Below, piece after piece: positions 5,360 through 45,282 of a stretch of DNA of 64,000 nucleotides. The stretch lies in contig JAQEWB010000003.1 in the NCBI GenBank assembly GCA_027694045.1, forward strand, positions 331,534 through 395,533. Reading direction: 5' to 3'. This stretch comes from Bacillaceae bacterium OF18-1A. GTDB taxonomy: Bacteria; Bacillota; Bacilli; Bacillales; Bacillaceae_G. A model generated the notes under the pieces. That model did no database searches. It was given only the letters and a program-made list of their open reading frames with translations, and had not been told where the DNA came from. How positions within the stretch are numbered: the first letter of the stretch is position 1; each line of letters begins with the position of its first letter. The translations under genes and the position numbers were made by a program.

Positions 5360-5480
5360 GAAATAATCTCCCTACTTTTCCATCTATCCCTTTTCTTATT
5401 TTATTGTATACGAAATGCCTATAATTCCCAAAGGTTTTTATTTACTTTTTTCTGTTTCACGTGAAACGGAAAAAAAAGAA

Positions 5481-8807: not shown

Positions 8808-10007
8808 TTACACTAATTCTCGTTGCTTCGTTTCTTGCCCAAGTATCATTACAGCAAACACTCCAATTAAAATAGATCCACAGAAAATCGTAAATATTAA
8901 TGATAGTGAAGCTTGTGAAGCAACTAAATATCCCACTAATAATGGACCAAGAATACCACCAATACGGCCAAATGCCGCTGCCATCCCTGCACCAGTACCA
9001 CGAATAACCGTTGGATATTGTTCAGGTGTGTAGGCGTATAAAGCACCCCAAGCACCTAAATTAAAGAAGGATAGTAACATACCTGCCACAATTAAAACTG
9101 TTAATGAATCTGCAACCCCAAACAAATAAGCACTACACGCTGTTCCAAATAAATACGTTACCAAAACAAATTTACGACCAAGGCGCTCAATAAACCATGC
9201 CGCTGTGAAATACCCCGGAAGTTGAGCTAATGTCATAATAAGTACGTATTGGAAACTTTTTATTAAACTAAATCCTTTTAATACCATTACACTAGGTAAC
9301 CAAAGAAACATTCCATAATAGGAGAAGACAACACAAAACCATAAAATCCATAACATAATTGTTGCCTTACGATATTCTCCAGACCAAACTAATTTTATAT
9401 TTTCGATAACCGATGGTCTTTTTTCCACCTTTTCAAATCTCGGAGAATCTGGTAAATTCCATCTTAAATATAAGGCATATATTGCCGGAACCGCACTCAA
9501 TACCATAGCAACTTCCCAGCCATATTTCGGTATAACAAAATATGAAATAAGAGCCGCAATTAGCCAGCCACCCGCCCAAAAACTTTCTAATAAAACAACT
9601 ATTTTTCCACGTTCATGTGCTTCAACACTCTCTGATACTAGTGTAGAGGCAACCGGAAGTTCTCCGCCAAGTCCCATACCAATTAAAAATCGTAAAACGA
9701 GGAACATCGAAAGTGTCGTCGTTAAAGCCGTTAAGCCACTACCGATAGAAAATAGTAATAATGTAATAATAAAGACTGATTTCCGTCCTATTTTATCCGA
9801 TAGTATCCCAAAAAGGAGTGCTCCTACTGCCATACCAATCGAGTTAATGCTACCTATCCAGCCCATTTCCTGGCTCGTTAATCCCCAATCTTTTTGCAGC
9901 GCTACAATTACAAATGAAAGCATCCCAACGTCCATTGCATCAAATAACCATCCAAGCCCTGCTATACCAAGTAGCTTTCGCTTTGATATTTCTTTTACCT
10001 TACTCAC
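8808..10007 (-). CDS. niaP: MFS niacin transporter
   Basis: This 399-residue, 12-helix major facilitator protein closely follows B. subtilis NiaP (YceI), a niacin/nicotinamide importer. Shared stretches include KLLGIAGLGWLFDAMDVG at the start, RFLIGMGLGGELPVASTLVS near residue 105, and FFNLGAWGALYAYTPEQYPT near 315. The loop 2-3 MFS motif GILSDKIGRK is intact. Start is GTG, 7 bases after AGGAGG. A palindromic ACACAGGTGT element sits a few bases further upstream and could be a niacin-responsive operator. It is a single-gene unit with its own terminator. Confidence 0.88.
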   Translation of the reverse strand: MSKVKEISKRKLLGIAGLGWLFDAMDVGMLSFVIVALQKDWGLTSQEMGWIGSINSIGMAVGALLFGILSDKIGRKSVFIITLLLFSIGSGLTALTTTLSMFLVLRFLIGMGLGGELPVASTLVSESVEAHERGKIVVLLESFWAGGWLIAALISYFVIPKYGWEVAMVLSAVPAIYALYLRWNLPDSPRFEKVEKRPSVIENIKLVWSGEYRKATIMLWILWFCVVFSYYGMFLWLPSVMVLKGFSLIKSFQYVLIMTLAQLPGYFTAAWFIERLGRKFVLVTYLFGTACSAYLFGVADSLTVLIVAGMLLSFFNLGAWGALYAYTPEQYPTVIRGTGAGMAAAFGRIGGILGPLLVGYLVASQASLSLIFTIFCGSILIGVFAVMILGQETKQRELV

Positions 10008-10336: not shown

Positions 10337-11068
10337 CGAACGCATTACTTCTTTTAAAAATTCTGCTAACACTAACTGACGACGCCAGCGTGTTGGGTTA
10401 CTACATAATCTGTAAAACCACTCTAAATGAATTGCTTGAATCCATTTTGGCGCGCGTTTTACCTCTCCAGCCCATACGTCTAAACTTCCGCCTACTCCAA
10501 CAGCCATTTTCGTTTCTAAACGGTGTTTATTGTTCTGAATAAAGTTCTCTTGTCTTGGGAAACCAAGTGCAACAAGTAATAAGTCTGGCTTGGCCTCTTG
10601 AATACGAGAAACAATATTCTCTTCTTCTTCTTGTTTAAAATACCCATCTTGTATACCAACAATAGATACGGCTGAATATGTCTTCTTTACATGATCTGCT
10701 GCTGCTTGTACAACATGTGGCTTTGCACCTAATAAGAAAACAGATACTGGCTTATTCTCTTCTGATAACTTCGCAAGCAAATTACACATTAAATCAAAGC
10801 CTGCTACACGTTCCTTTAAAGGTGTACCAAGCATACCACTTGCCTTTACAACCCCAATGCCGTCAGGCGTAATTAAATTTGCATGTAATAATGTTTCATG
10901 AAACTTTTCATCTTTTTTTGCACACATAACAATTTCAGGATTTGCTGTTACTACCTGAAAAGTATCAGTTTGCTCCGATTCTAGCTGTTTCTTTAAATAT
11001 TGAACCGTTTCATCCATTGTCATTGTTGAGAAAGGAACACCTAGAATATCAACTGTTTGTACTGCCAT
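10328..11068 (-). CDS. tagA: WecG/TagA/CpsF glycosyltransferase
   Basis: The 246-residue GT26 enzyme transfers N-acetylmannosamine (or a related sugar) to an undecaprenyl-diphosphate-GlcNAc acceptor at the inner membrane face, early in wall teichoic acid or wall polysaccharide synthesis. The family signature is visible as VVTANPEIVM near residue 40, LITPDGIGVV with Asp69 as likely catalytic base, GFDLMCNLL near 94, ALGFPRQENFI near 167 and GVGGSLDVWAGEVKRAPKW near 193. The C-terminal basic helix (RWRRQLVLAEFLKEVMRSKK) probably binds the membrane. It follows a GT4 gene by 21 bases, so the two form an operon with the O-antigen ligase-like gene upstream. The actual polymer is not shown by the sequence. 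Confidence 0.9.
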   Translation of the reverse strand: MAVQTVDILGVPFSTMTMDETVQYLKKQLESEQTDTFQVVTANPEIVMCAKKDEKFHETLLHANLITPDGIGVVKASGMLGTPLKERVAGFDLMCNLLAKLSEENKPVSVFLLGAKPHVVQAAADHVKKTYSAVSIVGIQDGYFKQEEEENIVSRIQEAKPDLLLVALGFPRQENFIQNNKHRLETKMAVGVGGSLDVWAGEVKRAPKWIQAIHLEWFYRLCSNPTRWRRQLVLAEFLKEVMRSKK

Positions 11069-40727: not shown

Positions 40728-40770
40728 TTGACAATTTAATAGAAGAGTGCTAAAAATAAAGTAATATAAT
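40728..40770 (+). promoter_or_regulatory. Promoter region of the attenuator-controlled MFS gene
   Basis: A perfect TTGACA (40728-40733) is followed 17 bases later by TAAAAA (40751-40756). A perfect TATAAT lies further on at 40765-40770 without a good -35 at standard spacing. Either could start the leader RNA described next. Confidence 0.45.
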
Positions 40771-40774
40771 ACAG

Positions 40775-40892
40775 TCCTTTAACCCAACCCCGTGAGGTTG
40801 AGAAGGAAGTCGGAATATAATATACGTATGTTCTTTTTAGGGATACGTATAGTTTTTTGGCCTTCTCATCATATCAGGTGAGAAGGCCTTTT
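40775..40892 (+). promoter_or_regulatory. PyrR-type transcription attenuator (leader RNA)
   Basis: Three mutually exclusive structures are visible. The anti-antiterminator 40776-40806 has outer stem CCTT/AAGG, inner stem CAACC/GGTTG and the loop sequence CCCGTGAGG that matches the PyrR-binding loop of pyr leaders. The antiterminator pairs TGAGAAGG (40799-40806) with CCTTCTCA (40861-40868) and encloses a perfect 8-bp hairpin TATACGTA/TACGTATA. The terminator is GGCCTTCTCA (40859-40868) with TGAGAAGGCC (40879-40888) plus TTTT. UMP-bound PyrR would stabilise the first and favour termination. Identification rests on memory of the PyrR consensus. Confidence 0.75.
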
Positions 40893-40936
40893 GTTATTCT
40901 TCCATAGCGACTGTAGAAAAATAAGGAGGAATAATA

Positions 40937-42232
40937 ATGAACATCACTACTGATGTACATCCCACAGAGGAAACGAAAGAGAAAAGATATAAAACGTTGT
41001 TTGGTTCTGCACTAGGATACGCCGCAGAAGGTTTAGATATGTTGCTCTTATCTTTCGTACTCGTCTATATTTTAAAAGAGTTTCACCTAAGCCCTGTTGA
41101 AGGCGGAAATTTAACTTTAGCTACAACAATAGGAATGCTAATTGGTTCTTACTTATTTGGATTTATCGCTGATTTATTTGGCCGTATTCGTACAATGGCC
41201 TTCACCATTTTATTATTCTCATTAGCGACAGCACTCATTTATTTTGCAACAGATTACTGGCAATTATTACTTCTTCGCTTTTTAGTTGGAATGGGCGTTG
41301 GTGGTGAATTCGGAATTGGAATGGCCATCGTAACTGAAACATGGTCTAAAGAAATGCGTGCTAAAGCAACATCGGTTGTTGCACTTGGATGGCAATTTGG
41401 CGTACTAGTCGCTTCACTTCTTCCAGCATTTATCGTTCCACACTTTGGTTGGAGAGCGGTTTTCTTATTCGGACTAATCCCGGCTTTATTAGCTGTCTAT
41501 GTGCGTAAAAGCTTAAGTGAACCAAAAATATGGGAGCAAAAGCAACGCCATAAGAAAGAATTGTTACAAAAAGAAGCTGATGGTAATTTAACAGCTTCTG
41601 AAGCAGAAGAGCTAAAGCACATGAAAAAATTCCCTCTTCGAAAGTTATTTGCCAATAAAAAAGTAACAATAACAACTATCGGACTTATTATTATGTCATT
41701 TATACAAAACTTCGGCTATTATGGAATTTTCACATGGATGCCAACCATTTTAGCAAATAAATATAACTACACATTAGCAAAAGCGAGTGGCTGGATGTTT
41801 ATTTCTACTATCGGTATGCTAATTGGAATTGCAACCTTTGGTATTCTAGCCGATAAGATTGGTCGTCGTAAAACTTTTGCACTCTATTATATTGGCGGTA
41901 CTATATACTGTCTCATTTACTTCTTCTTCTTTACAGATGCAACATTATTATTATGGGGAAGTGCCTTACTTGGATTCTTTGCAAATGGCATGATGGGCGG
42001 ATTCGGAGCAATTTTGGCTGAAAACTATCCCGCTGAAGCCCGCTCTACAGCGGAAAACTTCATTTTCGGTACAGGACGTGGTTTGGCCGGATTTGGACCT
42101 GTTATTATCGGTTTACTGGCTACAGGTGGGAATCTACTTGGAGCATTATCCCTGATCTTTATCATCTACCCAATTGGATTAATTACAATGCTATTATGTG
42201 TACCAGAAACAAAAGGAAAAGTGTTAGATTAA
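40937..42232 (+). CDS. MFS transporter, aromatic acid:H+ symporter-like
   Basis: The 431-residue, 12-helix protein has the MFS loop motif GFIADLFGRIRTM and its repeat GILADKIGRRKTF. LLLLRFLVGMGVGGEFGIGMA near residue 112 and a charged central loop (about 200-235) place it near the AAHS/sugar-type symporters for benzoate-like acids. Because its gene lies behind a PyrR-type attenuator, a pyrimidine-linked substrate such as orotate (an aromatic carboxylate) is a reasonable guess, not a sequence-based assignment. AGGAGG precedes the ATG. It is a single-gene unit with a terminator shared with the BCCT gene. Confidence 0.88.
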   Translation: MNITTDVHPTEETKEKRYKTLFGSALGYAAEGLDMLLLSFVLVYILKEFHLSPVEGGNLTLATTIGMLIGSYLFGFIADLFGRIRTMAFTILLFSLATALIYFATDYWQLLLLRFLVGMGVGGEFGIGMAIVTETWSKEMRAKATSVVALGWQFGVLVASLLPAFIVPHFGWRAVFLFGLIPALLAVYVRKSLSEPKIWEQKQRHKKELLQKEADGNLTASEAEELKHMKKFPLRKLFANKKVTITTIGLIIMSFIQNFGYYGIFTWMPTILANKYNYTLAKASGWMFISTIGMLIGIATFGILADKIGRRKTFALYYIGGTIYCLIYFFFFTDATLLLWGSALLGFFANGMMGGFGAILAENYPAEARSTAENFIFGTGRGLAGFGPVIIGLLATGGNLLGALSLIFIIYPIGLITMLLCVPETKGKVLD

Positions 42233-42234
42233 AT

Positions 42235-42276
42235 AAAAAAGAGGAAGCATCCCATTTCAGATGCTTCCTCTTTTCA
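42235..42276. terminator. Bidirectional terminator
   Basis: AAAAGAGGAAGCATC (42237-42251) pairs perfectly over 15 bp with GATGCTTCCTCTTTT (42260-42274) between the MFS gene and the convergent BCCT gene. Confidence 0.88.
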
Positions 42277-44211: not shown

Positions 44212-45282
44212 TTATTTGTGAAAGAAATTTGGTTTCAGTACATCATTTGGATACGGTTTATGATAAATATGAGTAGTAGCTGGCGACAATGGCGGAATGA
44301 GCCATACCCAATTCCCTGTTACAACTCGTCCACAAGCAATCTCCTGCTTCTCAAATTGCTGAAACTGTTGTGCAGCCGTATGGTGATCAACGATGCTAAC
44401 TCCTTGCTTTTTAAAGGAGTGTAACACAGCCACATTTAATTCAACTAATGCTTTGTCTTTCCATAACGTACTGTTTCTCGATGTATCTAAATTCATCATT
44501 TCCGCAATAGCTGGAAGTAAATTATAACGATCATGATCAGCCAAATTACGAGCTCCAATTTCCGTTCCCATATACCAGCCATTAAACGGAGCTGCTGTAT
44601 AAGAAATACCACCAATCTCTAAACGCATATCCGAAATCATTGGAACCCCATACCATTTCACCCCGAGTGATGAAATAGGGTACTCCGGATGCTCAATTGG
44701 TACTTCTTTTACTTCTTCCGTTGGAATTTCCTTATATATAGGGTCTTTTCCGTCTATAGAAAAGACAAGGGGTAACACATCAAAGCTCGTACCTTCGCCT
44801 TGCCAGCCAAGCTCCTGACAAAATTCCGTAAATGTAGTGGAATGAGAATCACCAATTACCCCCATTTTTGTTTTGTATCCTGCATAGCGAATCAATTGGT
44901 GATTATAAATTCTTATATTATTTTTTCCACCTTGATATTGCTTGAAAATCGTAATTGTCGGCTTCACTTTCCCGTCGTTCGTTGCATATTTAATGTGATG
45001 AATTAATGCATTATATACACCTTCCTCATCATTCACTTCACGTGCATCTAATATGTGCATCTTACTCCAGAACAGTCTCCCAATACATCTATTACTATTA
45101 CGCCACGCCATTCGTGAACCATGAACAAGCTCTTCAAACGTATGCTCATATGTCCCCGTCTTCTCTATTTCAATTTGAATTTCTTTTATACGTTTTTCTA
45201 CTAATTGCTCCTTATTAAGCTCCTTATAGCAAATCGTAATAAAGCTACTTGCCTCTTCTATTAATTGTTTCGTTTTACTCAT
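44212..45282 (-). CDS. nos: Nitric oxide synthase oxygenase
   Basis: The 356-residue heme enzyme makes NO from arginine. It has only the oxygenase domain, as in all Bacillus NOS, and must borrow electrons from a cellular flavodoxin or reductase. The heme thiolate is Cys66 in WRNSNRCIGRLFW. The substrate helix has NGWYMGTEIGARNLADHDRYN with the arginine-binding Glu near residue 243. The C-terminal TGNWVWLIPPLSPATTHIYH region lines the pterin/THF site. AAGGAG precedes the ATG. It stands alone. In B. anthracis and related species the enzyme protects against oxidative stress and some antibiotics. Confidence 0.95.
   Translation of the reverse strand: MSKTKQLIEEASSFITICYKELNKEQLVEKRIKEIQIEIEKTGTYEHTFEELVHGSRMAWRNSNRCIGRLFWSKMHILDAREVNDEEGVYNALIHHIKYATNDGKVKPTITIFKQYQGGKNNIRIYNHQLIRYAGYKTKMGVIGDSHSTTFTEFCQELGWQGEGTSFDVLPLVFSIDGKDPIYKEIPTEEVKEVPIEHPEYPISSLGVKWYGVPMISDMRLEIGGISYTAAPFNGWYMGTEIGARNLADHDRYNLLPAIAEMMNLDTSRNSTLWKDKALVELNVAVLHSFKKQGVSIVDHHTAAQQFQQFEKQEIACGRVVTGNWVWLIPPLSPATTHIYHKPYPNDVLKPNFFHK

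Follow-up and report, generated by a model that had tools for sequence, protein, structure and literature searches.

A predicted PyrR attenuator upstream of a lone MFS gene: a candidate orotate importer with a possible second, translation-level lock

We analyzed a stretch of 64,000 nucleotides (nt) from contig JAQEWB010000003.1 of Bacillaceae bacterium OF18-1A, hereafter the window, in which a PyrR-type leader (40771-40936) lies directly upstream of a gene for a major facilitator superfamily (MFS) transporter, a candidate orotate importer. The transporter gene (40937-42232, + strand) is an open reading frame of 431 amino acids, and its product scores 187.9 bits against the Pfam MFS_1 model (cut-off 33.4 bits), which places it in the MFS. 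A promoter-like TTGACA is found at 40728-40733 (+), followed after 17 nt by TAAAAA ending at 40756 or, with an alternative spacing of 18 nt, by AAAAAT ending at 40757; by visual inspection, TTGACA is also present at the corresponding site in orthologous leaders. The gene is followed by a terminator-like hairpin (42236-42275, listed on the - strand only) and a convergent BCCT gene, thus no second gene follows on the + strand, and the single-gene arrangement described in the initial annotation holds. The lrgAB genes and a LytS/LytR-type two-component pair also adjoin the transporter gene.

The leader had been annotated as a PyrR attenuator, and the Rfam search confirmed this assignment. The RF00515 (PyrR) model matches positions 40772-40895 (+) over its full length (1-115 of 115) with 57.7 bits against a gathering threshold of 54 (E = 2.6e-5), and it is the sole match above any curated Rfam cut-off across the window. 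All three annotated helices were located in the sequence. The PyrR-binding hairpin, or anti-antiterminator (40775-40807, +), includes a lower stem TCCTT/AAGGA, an upper stem CAACC/GGTTG and a loop CCGTGA, which sits inside the annotated CCCGTGAGG. The antiterminator is formed by the 5' arm TGAGAAGG (40799-40806, +), which pairs over 8 bp with CCTTCTCA at 40861-40868. The intrinsic terminator (40859-40892, +) consists of a stem-loop at 40859-40888 and a TTTT run, and its 5' arm contains the same CCTTCTCA, so that antiterminator and terminator exclude each other through the common arm. The folding energy of the leader is better than that of 200 out of 200 shuffled sequences (z = -5.0). By its sequence and predicted folds the element is a PyrR attenuator, with predicted PyrR binding and response to uridine monophosphate (UMP).

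The same binding hairpin, antiterminator and terminator can pair in the window leader and in six other aligned leaders. The 10 pairs of the binding hairpin are paired in 100% of cells, its CC[CT]GTGAGG motif is found in 7 of 7 aligned leaders, and its lower stem is invariant. The upper stem and the terminator keep their pairing despite variation, with one and three pairs, respectively, changed on both sides. In the antiterminator, two of the 8 pairs vary on one side and 100% of cells are paired.

PyrR matches were assigned with Rfam, since a hand-made pattern of the PyrR hairpin missed known sites and was dropped. A scan of one genome per species yielded 19 loci with relatives of the transporter, none of them from the B. 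cereus group. A PyrR match above the cut-off was identified directly upstream of the orthologue in 4 of 16 loci scanned (L001, L011, L002 and L003) and in two of 7 further loci (L072 and L114), which makes 7 loci in total including the window. Among the other five further loci, the pyr cluster of L075, L077 and L080 contains a PyrR match at another site, and L079 and L089 have none. The PyrR motif is present in L089, with an insert of ~130 bases between the hairpin and the terminator; this insert (10644-10783, with the leader on the - strand) consists of a repeat for which that genome has 29 matches, and represents a natural insertion in the switch. The orthologous loci with this kind of leader (n = 7) come from two Rossellomorea, two Aneurinibacillus and three other genomes. 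Three Paenibacillus loci (L004, L005, L007), two Brevibacillus loci (L008, L010) and L018 lack a PyrR match even when E-values up to 1 are allowed, and the leader pattern had no match in viral contigs.

The distribution of the transporter gene is patchy. Matches at E<=1e-90 were found in 6 of 397, 7 of 39, 7 of 189, 3 of 15 and 10 of 26 genomes of five partly overlapping groups; these counts are lower bounds, as for several groups the initial screen was limited to 4 or 9 scored candidates in each genome. In a class-wide sample, the gene is present at E<=1e-150 in 12 of 398 genomes. PyrR sites are also found upstream of NCS1-type permease genes (PF02133) in three of nine genomes, thus PyrR sites before transporter genes are not unusual. 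These sites (L031, L032 and L041) precede cytosine/purine/uracil permeases in G005, G002 and G003, the genomes of L008, L002 and L003, respectively; with 50.8 bits, the L041 site does not reach the Rfam cut-off.

The transporter had also been described as a member of the aromatic acid symporter type. This description stands as a resemblance: TIGR00895 (aromatic acid:H+ symporter) is the best NCBIfam model, and its alignment covers transporter residues 10-394 and nearly the whole model. As a family membership it fails, the score being 295.3 bits against a curated cut-off of 418.55. Relatives of the transporter are named in databases as MFS transporter or 'benzoate transport', and the closest protein cluster, at 94-95% identity, is named B. 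cereus 95/8201; this name, together with the adjoining lrgAB genes and two-component pair, suggests that the window is part of a B. cereus group chromosome. The AlphaFold2 model of the transporter is of high predicted quality (pLDDT 89.2, pTM 0.88). A structure search with this model against PDB returned as top matches MFS proteins that are general relatives (SV2A, SLC22 proteins and sugar carriers), and indicated no substrate. Residues invariant in 46 rows of a narrower alignment set, e.g. Q257, N258, N350 and N374, provide a lead for a possible binding site. Burkholderia relatives located beside gallate genes share these residues, therefore they do not separate substrates.

To characterize the genomic context of the family, we labelled the neighbours of 50 family members and four distant MFS controls (L019, L103-L105; 24-31% identity) by tblastn with pyrimidine and orotate-route proteins, counting each place once. 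The stretches are ~9 to 20 kb long, with a few truncated where a contig ends, and absences should therefore be read with caution. Subunits of dihydroorotate dehydrogenase (DHODH; PyrK and/or PyrD homologues) adjoin 24 of the 50 family members, namely L077-L081, which also follow pyrE, L084-L086, L115, L012, L013, L015-L017, L116-L119, L121, L122 and the plasmid loci L095-L097 and L101. A dihydroorotase is present in 23 of these (all except L012), and a carbamoylase-type hydrolase in 22 (all except L084 and L085). Two members (L075 and L076) follow carA-carB-pyrF-pyrE and lack breakdown genes. Across the order of Brevibacillus, the gene directly follows pyrE in 7 of 7 matching genomes (39 in the group). 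Close relatives are thus found in pyrimidine and orotate clusters, as expected for an orotate transporter. None of the four controls has a pyrimidine or orotate-route neighbour. Eight family members are stand-alone genes with PyrR-type leaders (the window, L001, L011, L002, L003, L089, L072 and L114), without such neighbours in the stretches examined; a tblastn search of the window identified no orotate-breakdown enzymes.

The tree of the 54 rows was built by a quick search. The eight transporters with PyrR-type leaders form one clade (SH-aLRT 99), which is joined to four Paenibacillus rows (SH-aLRT 99). Both belong to a clade of 27 rows (SH-aLRT 100) that also includes 7 pyr-cluster members, L115 and seven rows from Negativicutes, five of them with breakdown genes. 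Long branches were flagged, and the joining of the 27-row clade with L012-L017 is possibly false.

Plasmid relatives were chosen from tblastn lists of 116 records at E<=1e-30, 53 of which are Klebsiella plasmids; two of the Klebsiella records were examined. Eleven plasmid relatives entered the 54 rows. Three more were examined and left out of the 50: L125 (Klebsiella), which has the same gene set as L095, L126 (34% identity), where no such neighbour is annotated, and L127, which has no annotation. Sets of an MFS gene with two DHODH subunits, a carbamoylase and a dihydroorotase are present in L095 (3437-9206, Klebsiella pneumoniae), L125, L096, L097 and L101, and by gene content these sets probably serve the use of orotate. 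The L095 set lies ~3 kb from lacY. On an Enterococcus plasmid (L102, 7001-10192), an MFS gene with 36% identity is located beside a nucleoside phosphorylase, deoB and a PucR-type regulator, and perhaps encodes a nucleoside carrier.

Among the neighbouring enzymes, all three PyrD-like proteins scanned (L079, L085, L095) score above the DHODH equivalog cut-off and far below the PreA cut-off. The PyrC of the Klebsiella plasmid set passes the dimeric PyrC equivalog TIGR00856 (411.3 against 292.95). Two Variovorax sets also carry an orotate phosphoribosyltransferase-like gene; the one scanned scores 221 bits and falls short of its cut-off (245). All M20 enzymes scanned (n = 4; L010, L018, L074, L095) pass a hydantoinase/carbamoylase model, and the four second dihydroorotases scanned (L018, L079, L085, L074) pass a dihydroorotase subfamily model. 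We read this enzyme set as the predicted conversion of orotate to dihydroorotate, N-carbamoyl-aspartate and aspartate that is expected for reductive breakdown of orotate, a route that exists in anaerobes. The initial annotation had guessed at orotate from chemistry alone; the adjacency to pyrE, the DHODH genes beside the relatives and the plasmid PyrC all support orotate as the candidate substrate.

We propose, with a probability of about 0.8, that the locus is a one-gene pyrimidine-salvage unit, in which a transporter under PyrR control imports orotate when UMP is low. What the sequences show directly is the match to the Rfam model, the helices that compete, the conservation of these helices among orthologues and the gene contexts of the relatives; PyrR binding, the response to UMP and the direction and substrate of transport are our inferences. 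The PyrR mechanism follows the account given in PMC4347634. At ample UMP, PyrR would hold the binding hairpin and thereby block the antiterminator, and transcription would stop after 40888. At little UMP, TGAGAAGG would be free to pair with CCTTCTCA, the terminator would fail and the MFS protein would be made. The protein would import orotate, most likely as an anion together with protons, and PyrE and PyrF would convert it to UMP. As PyrR control means that the gene is made when UMP is low, import is the favoured direction.

Several observations weigh against this proposal. Five of the 50 members have a dihydroorotase and/or a carbamoylase and no DHODH in the stretch examined (L014, L073, L074, L087, L088), and would also fit dihydroorotate or carbamoyl-aspartate as substrates. 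No pyrimidine or orotate-route neighbour was found in the stretches of 11 of the 50 (L004-L007 of Paenibacillus, L082, L083, L120 and the plasmid loci L098-L100 and L102); among the plasmid relatives of this group, two are located beside gallate genes and one beside a nucleoside phosphorylase. The pyr cluster of Brevibacillus has no pyrK or pyrD between carB and pyrF, hence the PyrKD beside the transporter might serve synthesis; in synthesis or breakdown, it handles orotate either way. In L008, a hairpin with a T-run, seen by eye and absent from the terminator listing, separates pyrE from the transporter gene, which leaves their co-transcription putative there. Finally, the models give mixed names: of the 4 scanned carbamoylases, 3 score above the cut-off of a subfamily model that carries the name allantoate amidohydrolase and all score too low for N-carbamyl-L-glutamate amidohydrolase (ErtE), and 3 of the 4 second dihydroorotases also pass an allantoinase model.

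These model matches, together with a PucR-like regulator in L010, raised the transport of allantoin or hydantoin as a candidate function. We set it aside because such a route offers no obvious role for DHODH subunits and the PyrC of the Klebsiella set scores above the dihydroorotase equivalog cut-off. We also considered a purine route that involves DHODH-like proteins; those proteins are set apart from DHODH in PMC4016543, and the three PyrD-like proteins here pass the DHODH model and not PreA.

Other cargoes and the opposite direction of transport were weighed against import of orotate. Dihydroorotate and N-carbamoyl-L-aspartate are possible substrates, and a transporter that carries one of them, or several intermediates of the same route, would suit L087, L088 and L074, where a dihydroorotase and a carbamoylase occur without DHODH within the stretch examined. 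We consider this unlikely, since the DHODH subunits beside nearly half of the members allow the route to start at orotate there, and the two Variovorax sets include an orotate phosphoribosyltransferase-like gene. Transport of a nucleobase or nucleoside (uracil, cytosine or uridine) would match the other PyrR-controlled permeases, such as the NCS1-type genes described above, and the distant Enterococcus plasmid relative beside nucleoside phosphorylase and deoB. However, that relative lies on a long separate branch, closer relatives accompany orotate-route enzymes, and aromatic acids are the substrates of the nearest named family, so we regard a nucleobase or nucleoside as a very improbable cargo. 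An exporter that relieves a build-up of orotate or of a pyrimidine analogue is conceivable, as MFS members transport in both directions. According to PMC12369341, pyrE mutants of several species accumulate orotate crystals outside the cell. Yet PyrR would induce the gene at low UMP, when loss of orotate is harmful, and relatives are located in apparent breakdown clusters, which need import; export is, in our judgement, the least probable of these readings.

Apart from the attenuator, the leader contains a conserved stretch 3' of the terminator (40893-40935), overlooked in the initial annotation, that is able to pair with the Shine-Dalgarno (SD) region. The anti-SD arm GTTATTCTTCC (40893-40903, +) forms a helix with the SD region GGAGGAATAAT (40925-40935, +). 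RNAalifold, applied to seven leaders, gives this helix along with the PyrR hairpin and the terminator; L089 was left out for its insert and folded singly, and the conserved pairing of the anti-SD arm is found there as well. Between the two arms lies GACTGT (40909-40914, +), complementary to ACAGTC at the 5' edge of the binding hairpin (40771-40776, +) and thus its possible long-range partner; ACAGTC is invariant in 7 of 7 aligned leaders and present in L089. All eight leaders have, after the terminator, the TTATTCTTCC arm (CCTTCC instead in L114) and then GACTGT. In nine genomes, both marks, ACAGTCCTTT and CTTCC-N-GACTGT, were found in all transporter leaders (4 of 4), as against none of the 24 other PyrR leaders.

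The leader seems, from these predicted pairings, to carry a second, translation-level lock that would bury the ribosome-binding site. The stretch is transcribed after the terminator, therefore it should not steer termination and would act on translation or stability. While PyrR occupies the 5' hairpin it would cause early termination; in leaky transcripts that read through, this hairpin would keep the anti-SD arm available to sequester the ribosome-binding site and so hold translation low. With PyrR off, the 5' ACAGUC...GGAAG strand would pair with CUUCC...GACUGU, draw the anti-SD arm away and open translation. The release of the SD by the ACAGUC/GACUGU pairing is a proposal, which modelled energies favour over the closed state in L001 only. 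In the nested-energy comparison, six of 7 leaders favour the hairpin with closed SD over the long-range state, with margins of 1.1 to 9.1 kcal/mol, whereas in L001 the long-range state has the advantage, by 3.2 kcal/mol. The long-range state with the terminator hairpin kept is at least as stable as the antiterminator with closed SD in 7 of 7 leaders; a combined antiterminator and long-range state could not be scored, apparently because the pairs cross.

Conservation of the stretch might instead reflect mRNA stability, a recent common origin of the leader or some other cause unrelated to a lock, and we treat this explanation as a substantial minority possibility. The eight leaders all come from one clade, the ACAGUC/GACUGU pair never varies in the aligned leaders and so offers no covariation, and the closed state has the lower nested energy in all leaders except one. 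In the SD helix, 98.7% of cells pair; of its 11 pairs, five vary on one side, four never vary, one departs by an unpaired cell only, and the sole change on both sides falls in L114, where the alignment is doubtful, the paired arm differing between the alignment and the single-sequence fold. The energy z-scores against shuffled sequences are modest (-1.1 to -3.2), and two of the 8 leaders miss the 5% level. On the other hand, RNAalifold found the SD helix unprompted, and GACTGT and CTTCC persist in L114 despite the changed sequence between them. Moreover, the unpaired probability of the SD core is 0.00-0.07 in 8 of 8 leaders (0.00 in the window), as compared to 0.01-0.72 in 11 other PyrR leaders, where it is at least 0.22 in 10; these controls are those of the 24 other leaders whose start codon was read by eye. 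The full combination, a two-lock PyrR leader in front of an MFS importer from an unrecognized orotate-uptake family that spans Bacillota and Pseudomonadota plasmids, is offered tentatively, and we hold it to be less probable than not.

PyrR control of transporters is already known in kind. Like the attenuators of pyr genes and uracil permease (RF00515), the leader has the binding hairpin with its conserved loop, an antiterminator that overlaps the 3' side of this hairpin and a terminator that shares an arm. It differs in that a lone MFS gene is controlled, and in having ACAGTC before the hairpin and the SD-pairing stretch with GACTGT, neither of which occurs in any of the 24 other PyrR leaders. 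PyrR reportedly represses translation in Mycobacterium smegmatis (Fields and Switzer 2007). The proposed lock would likewise act at translation; the leader described here has a transcription terminator, and a predicted RNA helix 3' of this terminator can bury the SD. In contrast to the TIGR00895 symporters, which it resembles, the transporter has relatives whose neighbours are mostly pyrimidine-route genes, the two Burkholderia plasmid relatives beside gallate genes aside.

We know of no bacterial MFS-type orotate importer, nor, to our knowledge, is the C4-dicarboxylate transporter DctA under PyrR. Orotate uptake by DctA of E. coli and Salmonella, as described in PMC13328217, would be the likeness between DctA and the candidate. 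OroP of Lactococcus lactis (TC 2.A.7.21.4), by its description in PMC12802215, imports orotate, the function proposed here, with sensitivity to 5-fluoroorotate as the test, and belongs to a superfamily other than the MFS. In open-licence PubMed Central text, we found no MFS transporter under PyrR, no orotate role for the family of this transporter and no SD lock in a PyrR leader. A comparative study of PyrR regulons (PMC3766115) places its data in additional files, where the transporter gene may be listed. The predicted route of the PyrKD, dihydroorotase and carbamoylase beside the relatives matches the reductive orotate breakdown of Clostridium (Zymobacterium) oroticum, known from older biochemistry; unlike that system, the window has the transporter alone, as judged by tblastn.

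Other features were noted in passing. A second MFS protein of the window (8814-10007, -) is 30% identical to the candidate, and no PyrR element above the Rfam cut-off accompanies it. By eye, a protein at 44212-45282 (-) resembles bacterial nitric oxide synthase oxygenase. Searches of plasmids and phages returned no match to the window DNA at the blastn limit. In Paenibacillus selenitireducens (L007), a match resembling a PreQ1 riboswitch, below the cut-off, is located at 5369-5414, just after the transporter gene and before a gene named YhhQ-like by eye.

If true, the proposal would add an importer of the MFS type to the orotate transporters of bacteria and assign a function to a family that is so far unannotated. 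It would also define a gene set for reductive breakdown of orotate in Bacillota and on plasmids of Pseudomonadota. Finally, with a functional second lock, PyrR would control translation as well as transcription through one leader.
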